From: Oceanisphaera avium
GTDB taxonomy: Bacteria; Pseudomonadota; Gammaproteobacteria; Enterobacterales; Aeromonadaceae
Direction of reading: 5' to 3'
Assembly: GCF_002157875.1 (NCBI RefSeq)
Contig: NZ_CP021376.1
Span: 1,302,001-1,366,000 of the forward strand
DNA length: 64,000 nucleotides
The notes beneath the pieces were generated by a model, which did no database searches, was not told the origin of the DNA, and saw only the letters and a list, made by a program, of their open reading frames with translations. The position numbers and the translations under genes were made by a program. Below, piece after piece: positions 30,957 through 35,398 of this stretch; position 1 is the stretch's first letter, and each line of letters begins with the position of its first letter.

Positions 30957-31937
30957 TTAATGACTAGCGCTAAGAACCTCTTGTGCTAGCCAGCCGCTAT
31001 AGCTGATATAAACTAGCAATAACAGCGCACCTTCAATGCGATTAATTCGTCCTTGGCGCTTTTTAAAGCCATAGCCTAAAACAAATAACGAGACCGTTAA
31101 GCCAATCATTACTAAAAAGTCCCGACTGATCACTTCACTGGCCACCGGCAGCGGGCTGATCACGCCTGCTAAACCGACGACCACCAAGGTATTAAAGAGG
31201 TTTGAGCCAATAACATTACCAATAGCTAAGTCATGCTGGTTTTTGCGAATAGCTACAATAGAAGACGCAAGCTCAGGCAAGGAGGTACCAATCGCCACTA
31301 TGGTTAAGCCAATAATTAAATCACTCACACCAAAGGCTTGAGCAATATTTACCGCGCCCCACACCAGTAACCGCGAGCTTGCCACTAACAATACTAAGCC
31401 TAATACCAGCCAAATAATGGCCGCTTTAGCCGTCATGGCTTGCTCATCAATAACCTGTTCTTCTTCGGCCGCGAGTTTATCTTGTGGTTGAGCCATGGCT
31501 TGGCGAATACTCCACGCCATTAATAAAGCAAATACTGCTAATAAAATAATGGCATCAACCCGCGAGAGCATGCCGTTCCATACTAAAGCTAATGAAAGTA
31601 AAGAGATCACTAGCAGCACCGGCAACTCTTTGCGCAACACTTGTGAGTGCACCTTAATGGGACTAATAAGCGCGGTAATACCTAAAATCACACCAATGTT
31701 AGCAATGTTTGAGCCATAGGCATTCCCTAGCGCAAGGCCAGGATTTCCCTCCAGTGAAGAAATAACCGATACCACAATTTCTGGGGCCGAGGTACCAAAA
31801 CCGACCACTATCATGCCGATCAACAATGGTGGCATGCCTGCATAACTCGCAGTAGCAGAGGCGCCATCGACGAAGCGGTCTGCACTCCACACCAAAATGA
31901 TTAAGCCCACCACAATGGCGGCAAGAGAAATTAGCAT
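30957..31937 (-). CDS. CaCA-family cation:Na+/H+ exchanger (YrbG-like), probable Mn2+ or Ca2+ efflux
   Basis: This inner-membrane protein has about ten hydrophobic segments and the two inverted alpha repeats of the CaCA family: VVGFGTSAPEIVVS (about 50-63) and VAIGTSLPELASS (about 225-237). An acidic cytosolic loop lies between them (DKLAAEEEQVIDEQ). The ATG at 31937 has AAGGA at 8 nt; two upstream in-frame ATGs lack a Shine-Dalgarno. The length is then 326 residues. Family members exchange Ca2+ or other cations. The manganese-type riboswitch in its leader suggests Mn2+ efflux here. Confidence 0.92.
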   Translation of the reverse strand: MLISLAAIVVGLIILVWSADRFVDGASATASYAGMPPLLIGMIVVGFGTSAPEIVVSVISSLEGNPGLALGNAYGSNIANIGVILGITALISPIKVHSQVLRKELPVLLVISLLSLALVWNGMLSRVDAIILLAVFALLMAWSIRQAMAQPQDKLAAEEEQVIDEQAMTAKAAIIWLVLGLVLLVASSRLLVWGAVNIAQAFGVSDLIIGLTIVAIGTSLPELASSIVAIRKNQHDLAIGNVIGSNLFNTLVVVGLAGVISPLPVASEVISRDFLVMIGLTVSLFVLGYGFKKRQGRINRIEGALLLLVYISYSGWLAQEVLSASH

Positions 31938-31988
31938 GACAGGCATCCTTGCACTAATGAGGCACATTTTTTAGATAGGAAAAGCTCG

Positions 31989-32011
31989 CGGTGCAAACCA
32001 GTGGCACCGCA
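31989..32011 (-). terminator. Terminator/attenuator-like hairpin in the exchanger leader
   Basis: On the minus strand GCGGTGC and GCACCGC form a perfect 7-bp stem with a 9-nt loop, followed by GAGCTTTTCC. It lies between the riboswitch and the exchanger start. A second large hairpin (GGGCGGGA/TCCCGCCC) is at 32055-32093. Either could be part of the expression platform; the T-run is short. Confidence 0.5.
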
Positions 32012-32108
32012 GTAGAAGTGTTCAATCACAACTCTAGACATAACGACTCGTTGAGGGCGGGATAAATACCAGAGCCAAGCTTAGTTCCCGCCCAGAGAAT
32101 AAACTTAG

Positions 32109-32218
32109 CTCAGGTCTCACCAATCTTAAGCTAATGCTTAAACACCATTACCATAAGCATGACGCTTAGAGATTGTTGATAATGGTTTCGGCAGGTGCCG
32201 AACGGTTACTCCCCCAAG
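32109..32218 (-). ncRNA. yybP-ykoY family (Mn2+) riboswitch
   Basis: Read on the minus strand, the leader of the exchanger contains the hallmark elements of this class in order: GGGGAGTAAC near the 5' end, TCAACAATCTC in the middle, and GGTGAGACCT near the 3' end. Four helices can be drawn: P1 CUUGGG/CCUGAG; P2 GUUCGGC/GCCGAAAC with one bulge; P3 ACCAUUA/UAAUGGU with an upper UAAGC/GCUUA; P4 UUAAGC/GCUUAA. The class binds Mn2+ and turns on efflux genes such as mntP and alx. It was not checked with a covariance model. Confidence 0.85.
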
Positions 32219-32494
32219 AAGCGCTCATTGTGCCAGCTCGTTAAACATTTGCAAAGCAGCTATTTTAAAAATTTATTACTCTTTTTTAATCATATAAATG
32301 CTAGCTAAGTCGCTTTTTATTAAGCTAAACCAACCGCCAATTGTGAGCCAGCTCCCAAATTCATAGCGTTTAAAACTAATGTCGGCTTGACTTAACACTC
32401 TTAGCATTCAAATGTGACTCTTTGTCGCCTATTTGTTATTTTTTTGTGTTTTATGCAAAGCTAATAATAATTTATTTCACCTTGATAACATTAA

Positions 32495-32613: not shown

Positions 32614-34035
32614 ATGAAATTAAAAACCCTTGTTGCTGCAATCGGTATGACCTTTGCTTTATCTGTACAAGCAAGTGAGTTACCTGTCATTGATGCAGTA
32701 TTAACTTCCCCTCCCATGGTGCCACCACCCATTAGCCGAGATCATGCGGCAAAAGTGGTTGTTAAAATGGAAACTGTTGAAAAAGTCATGGAAATCGCCG
32801 ATGGCGTTGAGTACATGTTCTGGACATTTGGTGGCTCAGTACCTGGTCAATTCTTACGAATTCGTGAAGGCGATGAGGTTGAATTTCATCTTTCAAACCA
32901 CCCCAGCTCTAAAATGCCGCACAACATAGACTTACACGCGGTTAACGGCCCAGGCGGTGGTGCTGCTGCCTCTTTTACTGCTCCTGGCCACACCTCAGTA
33001 TTTAACTTTAAAGCCTTACATCCGGGCTTGTACGTGTATCACTGTGCCACCGCACCGGTGGGCATGCACATTGCTAATGGCATGTACGGTTTAGTTTTGG
33101 TTGAGCCTAAAGAAGGCTTGCCAAAAGTGGATAAAGAATACTACGTCATGCAAGGCGACTTTTATACGAAAGGCGCATATGGCGAACAAGGCTTCCAAGC
33201 TTTTGATATGGACAAGGCCATTAAAGAAGATGCGGATTATGTCTTATTTAACGGCGCAGTGGGTGCACTCACAGGCGATAAAGCCCTTACCGCTAACGTA
33301 GGTGAAACCGTACGTTTATTTATGGGTAATGGTGGCCCTAACTTAGCGTCTTCTTTCCACGTCATTGGCGAGATTTTCGATAAAGTAAACGTAGAAGCAG
33401 GTACGCTCGAAAACCATAACGTACAAACATCTTTAATTCCGGCCGGTGGCGCTATTACCGCCGAATTTAAAGTGGATGTACCGGGCAACTTTATTATGGT
33501 TGACCACTCAATCTTCCGTGCCTTTAATAAAGGCGCACTGGGCATGATTAATGTCGATGGCCCAGAAGATAAAGTCATCTATTCTGGAAAAGTATCAGAA
33601 ACCGTTTACTTGCCAGAAGGCTCGGCCGTACAGAGCATCCCTAATAACCGTCCTAAGCAAGCGGCTAGCAGTAAAGAAGACCAAATGCTCTATGGTAAGC
33701 GCGTCTATGAAGCTAACTGCCAAGCATGTCACCAAGCAGATGGTAAAGGTATCCCAGGTGCGTTCCCTCCATTGGCGAAGTCTGACTTCTTGAACGACGA
33801 TCCTACTCGTGCCATCGATGTCGTCGTGCATGGCTTAAAAGGCCCCATCAAAGTCAATGGCGCCGCCTTTGACAGTATTATGCCTGCGATGGCTTTATCT
33901 GATGAAGATACCGCTAACGTCTTAACCTATGTGCTCAATACGTGGGATAACAACGGCACAGTAGTGAGTCCAAAAGAGGTGAAAAAACGTCGTGACTCAG
34001 GTAAGCCGTTAGTAATGGAAGGGAGTGCACACTAA
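32614..34035 (+). CDS. nirK: Copper nitrite reductase fused to cytochrome c (NirK, three-domain type)
   Basis: This periplasmic enzyme reduces nitrite to nitric oxide in denitrification. The 473-residue protein has a signal peptide ending VQA. Two cupredoxin domains (about 25-345) follow with copper ligands visible in [40 protein letters not shown] and MVDHSIFRA; the catalytic Asp is in NIDLH and His in SFHVIG. A C-terminal class I cytochrome c domain has CQACH and a late Met in IMPAMALS. This fused form is known from Ralstonia and Pseudoalteromonas. Its stop overlaps the nirV start (TAATG). Confidence 0.96.
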
Positions 34036-34856
34036 TGACTAGGGCACTATTGCTGGGCTTGGCCGCCTTAGCAAGTGGGGTGCCCCCCCTCTTTGCAGCC
34101 TCTTCAGAGGCTGCTAATTTCAATGTTGAGCGAATGGTCGAACTTCCCAGCGGGGAAGTTCGACCGCTTTATCTCACCAAAGACAGCCCATTGACCCCGG
34201 TGGCCTCCTTTTGGTTGGACACCCACCCAGTCACTAACGCTGAATTTGCCGATTTTGTACGCCAACATCCTGCTTGGCAAGCCGACCAAGCGCCCGCTTT
34301 ATTTGTAGAGTCTCAATATTTAACACACTGGCCCAGTAATAATGAAAAAATGACCGCCACCCAAGCGGCGCAACCCATGACCTATGTATCTTGGTATGCA
34401 GCTGATGCTTATTGCCAAGCTCAAGGCAAACGCTTACCTACTGTGTCGGAATGGGAGTATGCGGCTCAAGCCTCTGAACAAAAAAGAGATGGCAGTAAAG
34501 AAGAGGGCTATACCCGACGGATTTTATCCTGGTATGCCAAGTCGGCCACTACCGAGTTAAATACGGTAGGTCAAAGCCCAGCTAACTACTGGCAAGTTTA
34601 TGATTTACACGGGTTAGTATGGGAGTGGACCCAAGACTTTAACTCCGCTTTAGTCACTGGAGAGTCCCGTGGCGATAGCACGATAGATCAAGGTTTATTT
34701 TGTGGCTCGGGTGCTGCTGGCAGTGCCGATCCTTCAGATTATGCCGCATTTATGCGCTACGGCTTTCGCTCAAGTTTAAAAGCTGCCTACACCTTAGGTA
34801 ACTTAGGGTTTAGGTGTGCACAAGATAGCAGTGAGCCTAAGCAAGGAGCTATATAA
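34035..34856 (+). CDS. nirV: NirV-like formylglycine-generating-enzyme-family protein
   Basis: This 273-residue exported protein has a signal peptide ending FAASSEA and an FGE-sulfatase (SUMF1-like) domain. It shows TNAEFADFVRQHP, PMTYVSWYAADAYCQAQGKRLPTVSEWEYAA, DLHGLVWEWTQDF and YGFRSSLKA...LGFRCA. NirV sits next to nirK in many denitrifiers, and its exact role is unresolved. It may assist nitrite reductase maturation. The gene is coupled by TAATG overlaps to both nirK upstream and the Sco-like gene downstream. Confidence 0.9.
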   Translation: MTRALLLGLAALASGVPPLFAASSEAANFNVERMVELPSGEVRPLYLTKDSPLTPVASFWLDTHPVTNAEFADFVRQHPAWQADQAPALFVESQYLTHWPSNNEKMTATQAAQPMTYVSWYAADAYCQAQGKRLPTVSEWEYAAQASEQKRDGSKEEGYTRRILSWYAKSATTELNTVGQSPANYWQVYDLHGLVWEWTQDFNSALVTGESRGDSTIDQGLFCGSGAAGSADPSDYAAFMRYGFRSSLKAAYTLGNLGFRCAQDSSEPKQGAI

Positions 34857-35398
34857 TGAGAATGCTATTTACCCTTCTTATGTTAGTGTTATTGCCGCTA
34901 ACGGCATACGCTAAGCTACCCAGTGATTCGGTTTATCACCTTAATAATCAATGGCAAGATAGCCAAGAAAACAAGCTTAATTTCGCCGATCTTGCAGGAA
35001 AAAAGCAAATTGTAGCGCTAATTTATACCGACTGTATCACCGCCTGCCCAGTGATTGTGTCGGATATGAAAGCCATTCAAGATGCGCTTACCCCTGAGCA
35101 ACAAGCCCAAATGGGCTTTGTATTAGTGTCACTCACGCCCGCGAGAGACACCCCTAAAGTCATGCGCCATTTTGCTAAAAAGCGAGAGCTAGATCAACAC
35201 TGGACACTGCTCAGTGGTAAAGACGATGATGTACGCACTCTCGCCATGGCCTTAAATATTCAGTATATGGGCTTACCGGATGGGGAAGTGGCTCACTCTA
35301 ATGCTATTACCGTCCTTGATGAGCAAGGCCGCCTACAGTTACAGCAAGTGGGTATGACAGGCGGCCCACACGCATTAATAAAAAAAGTATTTAACTAA
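34856..35398 (+). CDS. SCO1/SenC-family copper chaperone or thiol protein
   Basis: This 180-residue exported thioredoxin-fold protein has a signal peptide ending AYA. The copper-binding/redox motif is CxxxC in YTDCITACPV, and the distal His is in VAHSNAITVLD. Sco proteins deliver Cu to oxidase centres or keep cysteines reduced. In this operon the likely client is the copper nitrite reductase; that is an inference from position. It overlaps nirV by TAATG and is followed by a strong terminator. Confidence 0.92.
   Translation: MRMLFTLLMLVLLPLTAYAKLPSDSVYHLNNQWQDSQENKLNFADLAGKKQIVALIYTDCITACPVIVSDMKAIQDALTPEQQAQMGFVLVSLTPARDTPKVMRHFAKKRELDQHWTLLSGKDDDVRTLAMALNIQYMGLPDGEVAHSNAITVLDEQGRLQLQQVGMTGGPHALIKKVFN

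Follow-up and report, generated by a model that had tools for sequence, protein, structure and literature searches.

A divergent yybP-ykoY-class riboswitch and a conserved small open reading frame ahead of a CaCA-family exchanger gene in Oceanisphaera avium

Genes and features of the locus

The window, that is, the whole 64,000-nucleotide stretch of Oceanisphaera avium DNA analysed here (contig NZ_CP021376.1, positions 1,302,001 to 1,366,000 of the forward strand), carries on its minus strand a gene for a CaCA-family exchanger, which is preceded by a small open reading frame (uORF) and a structured RNA leader. The features are listed below in window coordinates.

30957..31937 (-): CaCA exchanger of 326 aa, probably starting at ATG 31937; PF01699, TIGR00367, NCX_Mj 1.3e-38
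31931..32041 (-): small ORF (uORF) of 36 codons plus TAA, its stop overlapping the exchanger start
31946..31950 (-): Shine-Dalgarno AAGGA of the exchanger, within the uORF, 8 bases upstream of ATG 31937
32047..32049 (-): GAG, a weak Shine-Dalgarno for the small ORF, 5-7 bases before its AUG in 22/22 leaders
32055..32093 (-): stem B, GGGCGGGA (32093-32086) with UCCCGCCC (32062-32055); the 5' strand sits within the stem A loop
32068..32115 (-): stem A, with a core formed by 32111-32100 and 32083-32072 that lengthens to 32115/32068 when the sequence is folded singly; a competitor of P1
32109..32225 (-): yybP-ykoY-type Mn2+ aptamer (putative ligand), whole match of model R1; R1, RF00080, covariation
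32109..32114 (-): 3' strand of P1, CCUGAG, also the 5' strand of stem A
32124..32143 (-): P4 hairpin, 97.7% of cells paired, 2 pairs changed on both sides
32144..32186 (-): P3 with the L3 block UCAACA (32179-32174) and inner helix 32168-32154; 4/7 outer pairs change on both sides
32187..32202 (-): P2 hairpin, 100% of cells paired, 1 pair changed on both sides
32207..32214 (-): L1 block GGGGAGUA from the RF00080 alignment; of its 8 bases, the final 7 (GGGAGTA) occur in 22/22 leaders
32213..32218 (-): 5' strand of P1, CUUGGG, partner CCUGAG 32114-32109; G-C to A-U on both sides in 7/22 leaders, at one pair
32227..32256 (-): promoter-like CTTTGC (32256-32251) N18 CACAAT (32232-32227), by consensus only

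The minus-strand frame 31967-30957 scores 242 bits against Pfam PF01699 (Na_Ca_ex) and 261 bits against TIGR00367 (calcium/sodium antiporter), above the cut-off of 179.65; it is thereby placed in this wider family, while its 287.8 bits against the YrbG equivalog NF008005 lie under the curated cut-off of 432. Two Na_Ca_ex domains are present, each repeat bearing GTS.PE and GN..GSN motifs, as in YrbG-like CaCA proteins, and the nearest solved structure by sequence is NCX_Mj. The sequence-only reading of this DNA had begun the gene at 31967; the start is more probably ATG 31937, because the family models align from residue 11-12 of the longer frame, AAGGA stands 8 bases upstream, and an ATG occupies this site in 23/23 loci of the genus. 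No Mn2+-specific residue was seen by eye in riboswitch-linked YrbG-like exchangers; the site motifs are identical in the rows of the genus, in rows of family genus g2 without the leader, and in G049, a genus-mate described below, so the protein itself appears to carry no marker of a Mn2+ carrier. On the plus strand, the divergent neighbour (32614-34035) encodes a copper nitrite reductase that ends in a cytochrome c domain, and it is followed by an FGE-sulfatase-type gene and a SCO1/SenC gene (34035-35398).

Identity of the aptamer

The leader was described in the sequence-only reading as a yybP-ykoY riboswitch with three conserved sequence blocks and four helices, and both parts of that description are upheld: L1 GGGGAGUA, L3 UCAACA and GAGACC are all found in it, and P1-P4 are recovered from aligned leaders. 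An RF00080 search, the check that had been proposed, returns a match at 32214-32122 (-) with E 6.8e-6 (841 bases, both strands); its 28.7 bits fall short of the gathering score of 45, a classification cut-off and not a biological feature, so that the cut-off alone would not settle the matter, and no Rfam model attains its gathering score anywhere in the window. R1, a covariance model built solely from the exchanger leaders of the genus, gives 111.3 bits at the window aptamer, whose own sequence is part of that model. The L3 of the window leader has one extra base relative to RF00080, and P4 is short in 18/22 leaders; UCAACA is kept in 21/22 (CCAACA in L023), and 7/22 leaders have GAGACU in place of GAGACC and AGGGAGUA in place of GGGGAGUA. 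The L3 adenine that was aligned by the analysts with A41 of L. lactis, and taken as the N7 donor, is invariant. On this evidence the window leader belongs, as a divergent member, to the yybP-ykoY (Mn2+) riboswitch class, and Mn2+ would be its ligand. Upstream, a CA[ACG]AAT hexamer lies within 30 bases of 21/22 leaders (the CTTT part was judged by eye), and the transcription start is guessed to lie near 32220.

Conservation and covariation of the leader

The exchanger was searched in 75 genomes of the family, from which a same-genus group of 23, including the O. avium genome itself, was drawn; this group is one GTDB genus, with records named Oceanisphaera, Oceanimonas and Zobellella, and it includes cultured members. 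The leader is kept at the exchanger in 22 of the 23. The remaining genome, G049 (locus L024), has a similar exchanger without a leader, and none of the matches listed by the RF00080 search of the family falls in it.

When the 22 leaders were folded by RNAalifold with no prior structure, P1, upper P1, P2, P3, inner P3 and P4 were all recovered, and 99.7% of the 682 helix cells (31 pairs) can pair; sliding the partner columns by 1-3 lowers this to 20-42%. Nine of the 31 pairs change on both sides, a count reached by 5/500 shuffles, and the cells with changes on both sides number 44 against a shuffled mean of 12.7, which none of 500 shuffles reached. Further pair types do not rise above the shuffles in these leaders (21 versus 20.4). 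Recognition is also reciprocal: R1 finds the leaders of G149 (61.0 bits; 58.5 by RF00080) and G124 (55.2; 53.3), both above the RF00080 cut-off and both before GDT1 (MneA-type) genes.

Chance resemblance, or a riboswitch in decay, might be suspected from a score under the Rfam cut-off; such an account is exceedingly improbable given covariation across 22 genomes and the conservation of both position and platform. At the gathering score, RF00080 passes none of the 20 genus loci searched, the window's included, and a permissive listing finds 13/17 of them at 20-34 bits, with 4/17 absent; the standard cut-off therefore misses this riboswitch clade in all 20 loci. Outside the genus, the nearest exchangers have no such leader: across 30 loci plus G049, searched with R1 unfiltered, the best score is 14.8 bits and falls within an opposite-strand gene, and Rfam, run on 20 of these 31 loci, likewise shows none.

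The expression platform

Two hairpins between the aptamer and the start codon were put forward in the sequence-only reading as candidate platforms. The first (32093-32055, stem B) holds up, with both strands in 22/22 leaders: GGGCGGG and TCCCGCCC are near invariant, and no covariation signal arises from them. The second (about 32010-31988) falls inside the small ORF, nothing similar was seen by eye in the other leaders, and it was set aside as a platform. An intrinsic terminator after stem B was likewise discarded, as no U-tract is seen there by eye. Upstream of stem B, stem A takes in the 3' strand of P1; by RNAalifold, 9 of its 12 pairs change on both sides, yet up to 6 of the 22 sequences break a pair.

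Competing folds of the leaders were compared, one with P1 forced and one unconstrained. The unconstrained fold is on average 13.5 kcal/mol lower over the 22 leaders, as against 4.5 for shuffled platforms, and in 15/22 leaders no more than 5 of 100 shuffles go as far; trimming the 5' end to near the guessed transcription start gives 11.5 versus 4.3 kcal/mol, with 14/22 leaders. Because this stability exceeds that of shuffled platforms, a competing P1-free state seems to be built into the platform.

Masking of the first start site is predicted, but weakly. The 5' strand of P1 can pair with the region of the first ribosome-binding site, through near-invariant bases on which covariation is uninformative; a scan of helices between this strand and the start region gives 5-10 pairs over the 22 leaders, a figure with no shuffled control behind it (rows L023, with no middle helix, and L163 and L168, where GGGAGTA was taken inside the aptamer, were left out). 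Computed accessibility of the start site (15 bases) rises with P1 in 19/22 leaders when 20 upstream bases are included. Once the 5' end is trimmed to the vicinity of the guessed transcription start, it rises in 13/22, the means moving from 0.48 to 0.51, and in the window leader it stays at 0.61 with and without P1.

A conserved small open reading frame

The first AUG downstream of stem B lies 11-14 bases away in 22/22 leaders. In correction of the sequence-only reading, the start codon at this distance from the switch is not that of the exchanger; it belongs to the conserved small ORF in every one of these leaders. The weak GAG of the small ORF is, in L015, the second GAG of GAGAG. The small ORF reaches the exchanger start in frame in 22/22 leaders, its stop falling at +4 of the exchanger so that the overlap reads ATGcTAA/TGA/TAG; an ORF placed at the start site of the switch, with a stop overlapping the next start, is the sequence arrangement looked for in termination-reinitiation at a uORF. 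Eight lengths occur (20, 21, 22, 24, 29, 33, 36 and 50 codons), all differing by multiples of three, and at least 8 length-class changes are needed on the tree of the exchangers, many inner branches of which are unsure; eight classes require no fewer than 7. Open in 22/22 leaders, the frame exceeds a shuffled control (mean 11.2, maximum 18 in 500); the other two frames are open in 6/22 and 9/22. Substitutions avoid the second codon position (82/359 pairwise differences over three groups, the pairs not being independent). The peptides vary widely, so it is the translation of the small ORF, rather than its sequence, that seems to matter.

In order genus g6 the layout is similar, but there it is the AUG of the exchanger itself that follows the corresponding element, at 12 bases in 11/11 loci fetched, as it does at 14 bases in the single f13 locus. 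We read this arrangement as a switch that controls the first AUG, with a small ORF intervening before the exchanger in the Oceanisphaera/Oceanimonas/Zobellella genus. In the literature searched, no yybP-ykoY leader joined with a coupled uORF was recognised; the conserved uORF relay would be a new element for the Mn2+ riboswitch class, its relaying role and mechanism being deduced from sequence.

Translation of the uORF could, on another account, have no consequence, with the exchanger using its own Shine-Dalgarno and the overlap arising from its first codons (ATGCTGA and similar). A Shine-Dalgarno-like stretch does precede the exchanger start in many of the 22 leaders, any ORF in that frame must stop at the TGA, TAA or TAG found there, and the variable peptides fit as well; against this stand a frame kept through at least 8 length-class changes and open more often than in any shuffle, and a first AUG 11-14 bases from stem B throughout, which make this account improbable.

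Proposed mechanism

The model judged rather likely is of a Mn2+ ON switch that opens a landing pad in the form of a uORF, to which the exchanger would be coupled; the exchanger would then export Mn2+. In the Mn2+-free state, stem A would capture P1's 3' strand, while its 5' partner (UUGGGGG) would pair with bases (CCCUCAA..GAG) about the first ribosome-binding site. Once Mn2+ is bound, docking of the aptamer would keep P1 together and shorten stem A, whereupon the stem A loop strand GGGCGGGA could join UCCCGCCC as stem B and the start of the 36-codon small ORF would be freed. Ribosomes finishing the small ORF at the stop that overlaps the exchanger start might then re-initiate, helped by the exchanger's Shine-Dalgarno, and the CaCA YrbG-like exchanger so produced would export Mn2+. 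Several observations count against this model, namely the RF00080 score below gathering, the weak masking, the exchanger's own Shine-Dalgarno, the want of such a leader at the nearest exchangers outside the genus, the site motifs shared by YrbG-like rows with and without it, and G049, which lacks the leader. Unmasking of the exchanger start by uORF translation was considered as the coupling step; accessibility rises in 12/22 leaders only, so coupling by unmasking is not supported. A stronger form of the model, to which slightly less than even credence is given, is that in Oceanisphaera, Oceanimonas and Zobellella the riboswitch never acts on the transporter start at all: it would open an obligatory uORF pad that serves as a sequence-free adapter, through which a YrbG-like exchanger could have come under an already existing Mn2+ switch, with output set by termination-reinitiation.

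The same uORF might instead act as a translated shield, and not as a re-initiation pad, if Rho stopped transcription before or in the exchanger gene whenever the uORF went untranslated. The E. coli mntP riboswitch is reported to cooperate with Rho-dependent termination (PMC11647493), Rho is likewise put forward as an alternative in the work on the ppe2 uORF of M. tuberculosis (PMC11260477), and the want of a U-tract makes an intrinsic terminator unlikely at this site; the stop/start overlap in 22/22 leaders would, however, be left unexplained, and termination by Rho is regarded as somewhat unlikely.

Related leaders and exchangers

A canonical yybP-ykoY leader of 58.9 bits stands before an Mntp-family gene (L001, G000:C1:1229022-1229189) in the O. 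avium genome (2.90 Mb, one contig); it is the only copy listed by an RF00080 search of the genome at E<=10, the exchanger leader not being among the hits. By eye, the canonical leader has GUCGGG/CCCGAC 14 bases ahead of the gene's AUG, with no ORF between. The genome appears, from these two leaders, to possess two Mn2+-switched transporters. In three genus-mates (L040, L041, L042), the other leader precedes, in place of mntP, a gene identified with Pfam as GDT1 (UPF0016, MneA-like), whose start is probably TTG.

Leaders of the RF00080 class precede CaCA genes in three groups, delimited by identity and without a tree: the present genus, g6/f13, and family genus g2, which we take to be probably Aeromonas. 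For g6/f13, 11 g6 genomes and 1 f13 genome with such leaders were fetched. The g2 exchanger is 22-24% identical to that of the window, and a match lies directly upstream in 25/25 genomes by coordinates, 8 of the 25 loci having been read and an exchanger-search hit in G014 (25% over 68 residues) left out of the count. These distant g2 loci (L063, L064, L175-L180) have strong yybP-ykoY leaders of about 62-72 bits across the 25 genomes, and the g2 exchanger lacks the usual GSN repeat motifs in the two rows aligned. A similar uORF in g2 was sought and dismissed: in L063 the ORF ending at the exchanger start begins within the aptamer, and L175 lacks that stop. In g6/f13 (L163-L174), the platform carries one further exact copy of the aptamer strand TCGAGGG, and ahead of the start codon lies CCCTCG, a complement of either copy, each in 12/12, an aptamer-strand decoy; as a general rule, stem B as such a decoy was dropped, the copy being exact in g6/f13 and just partial in the genus of the window. 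In the order sample, at least 84 of 247 genomes hold an RF00080 match, and of 17 RF00080 loci read over family and order, 3 stand before a CaCA gene and 14 before frames judged by eye to be MntP- or GDT1-like, three of these (L065, L070, L074) having been checked with Pfam.

Repeated association of the class with CaCA exchangers favours Mn2+ as a physiological substrate. The leader could alternatively sense another or broader divalent ion, for example Ca2+ together with Mn2+, with the exchanger exporting Ca2+, as its annotation as a calcium/sodium antiporter would suggest; a review also states that one aptamer of the class, that of S. pneumoniae mgtA, binds Ca2+ more tightly than Mn2+ (PMC9495176). 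The invariant L3 adenine taken as N7 donor speaks against it, as do the canonical leader on the Mntp-family gene of the same genome and the reportedly Ca2+-insensitive expression of the B. pertussis exchanger gene BP3410, for which data are not shown in that source (PMC8546581), and the proposal is held to be decidedly improbable.

Comparison with known systems

The nearest precedent is BP3410 of B. pertussis, a CaCA exchanger for which both induction by Mn2+ via a yybP-ykoY riboswitch and Mn2+ export have been shown (PMC8546581). Since a CaCA exchanger under this riboswitch class exports Mn2+ there, Mn2+ export is a good guess here, and the window exchanger is probably a Mn2+ exporter by this analogy and by its linkage to the leader. 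The two loci are alike in having a CaCA-superfamily gene behind a yybP-ykoY aptamer; they differ in that transcription of BP3410 without Mn2+ is said to stop within the riboswitch, and in that no uORF is mentioned in the portions of that report drawn on here (PMC8546581). BP3410 may also belong to another CaCA subgroup, a guess from the weak Pfam E-values quoted in the same source (PMC8546581).

The sequence-only reading correctly placed a CaCA gene where mntP, alx or P-type ATPase genes are better known, but its suggestion of Mn2+ export by such an exchanger is not new, as BP3410 (PMC8546581) illustrates. A 2023 review table has 'YRBG', of Ca2+:cation exchanger type, among Mn exporters (PMC9936198), and V. 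vulnificus yrbG, a YrbG-type gene, is said to be under yybP-ykoY, the same class as at the window locus, on the basis of a RegPrecise prediction (PMC13274385). With the genus described here, a YrbG-like CaCA lineage with a leader of its own joins the genes under Mn2+ riboswitches, and Mn2+ transport by YrbG-type exchangers becomes directly testable. In comparison with RF00080, the window leader shares P1-P4, L1 GGGGAGUA, L3 UCAACA with its invariant A, and the GAGACC that closes P1, whereas the exchanger clade scores under the family cut-off even where it is found.

The off state of the E. coli mntP riboswitch is said to mask the Shine-Dalgarno (PMC11647493). By eye, the mntP leader resembles that of the window: two G-rich strands, one of them the GGGG strand of the aptamer, are joined by a C-rich one a short way ahead of the start codon, a pattern that was not seen by eye in the E. 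coli alx leader; unlike the window locus, it is mntP's own AUG that is regulated. The closest parallel to the uORF is the M. tuberculosis B12 riboswitch, which is reported to control a ppe2 uORF whose stop overlaps the next start and which serves as a landing pad, mainly through termination-reinitiation (PMC11260477). Riboswitch class, ligand and gene differ, and the mechanism is experimental in that report and deduced here (PMC11260477); both loci nevertheless have a uORF behind a riboswitch, with its stop overlapping the next start. The Oceanisphaera leader would accordingly stand beside the M. tuberculosis B12 riboswitch as a Mn2+-class case of a uORF that appears to relay the signal of a riboswitch.
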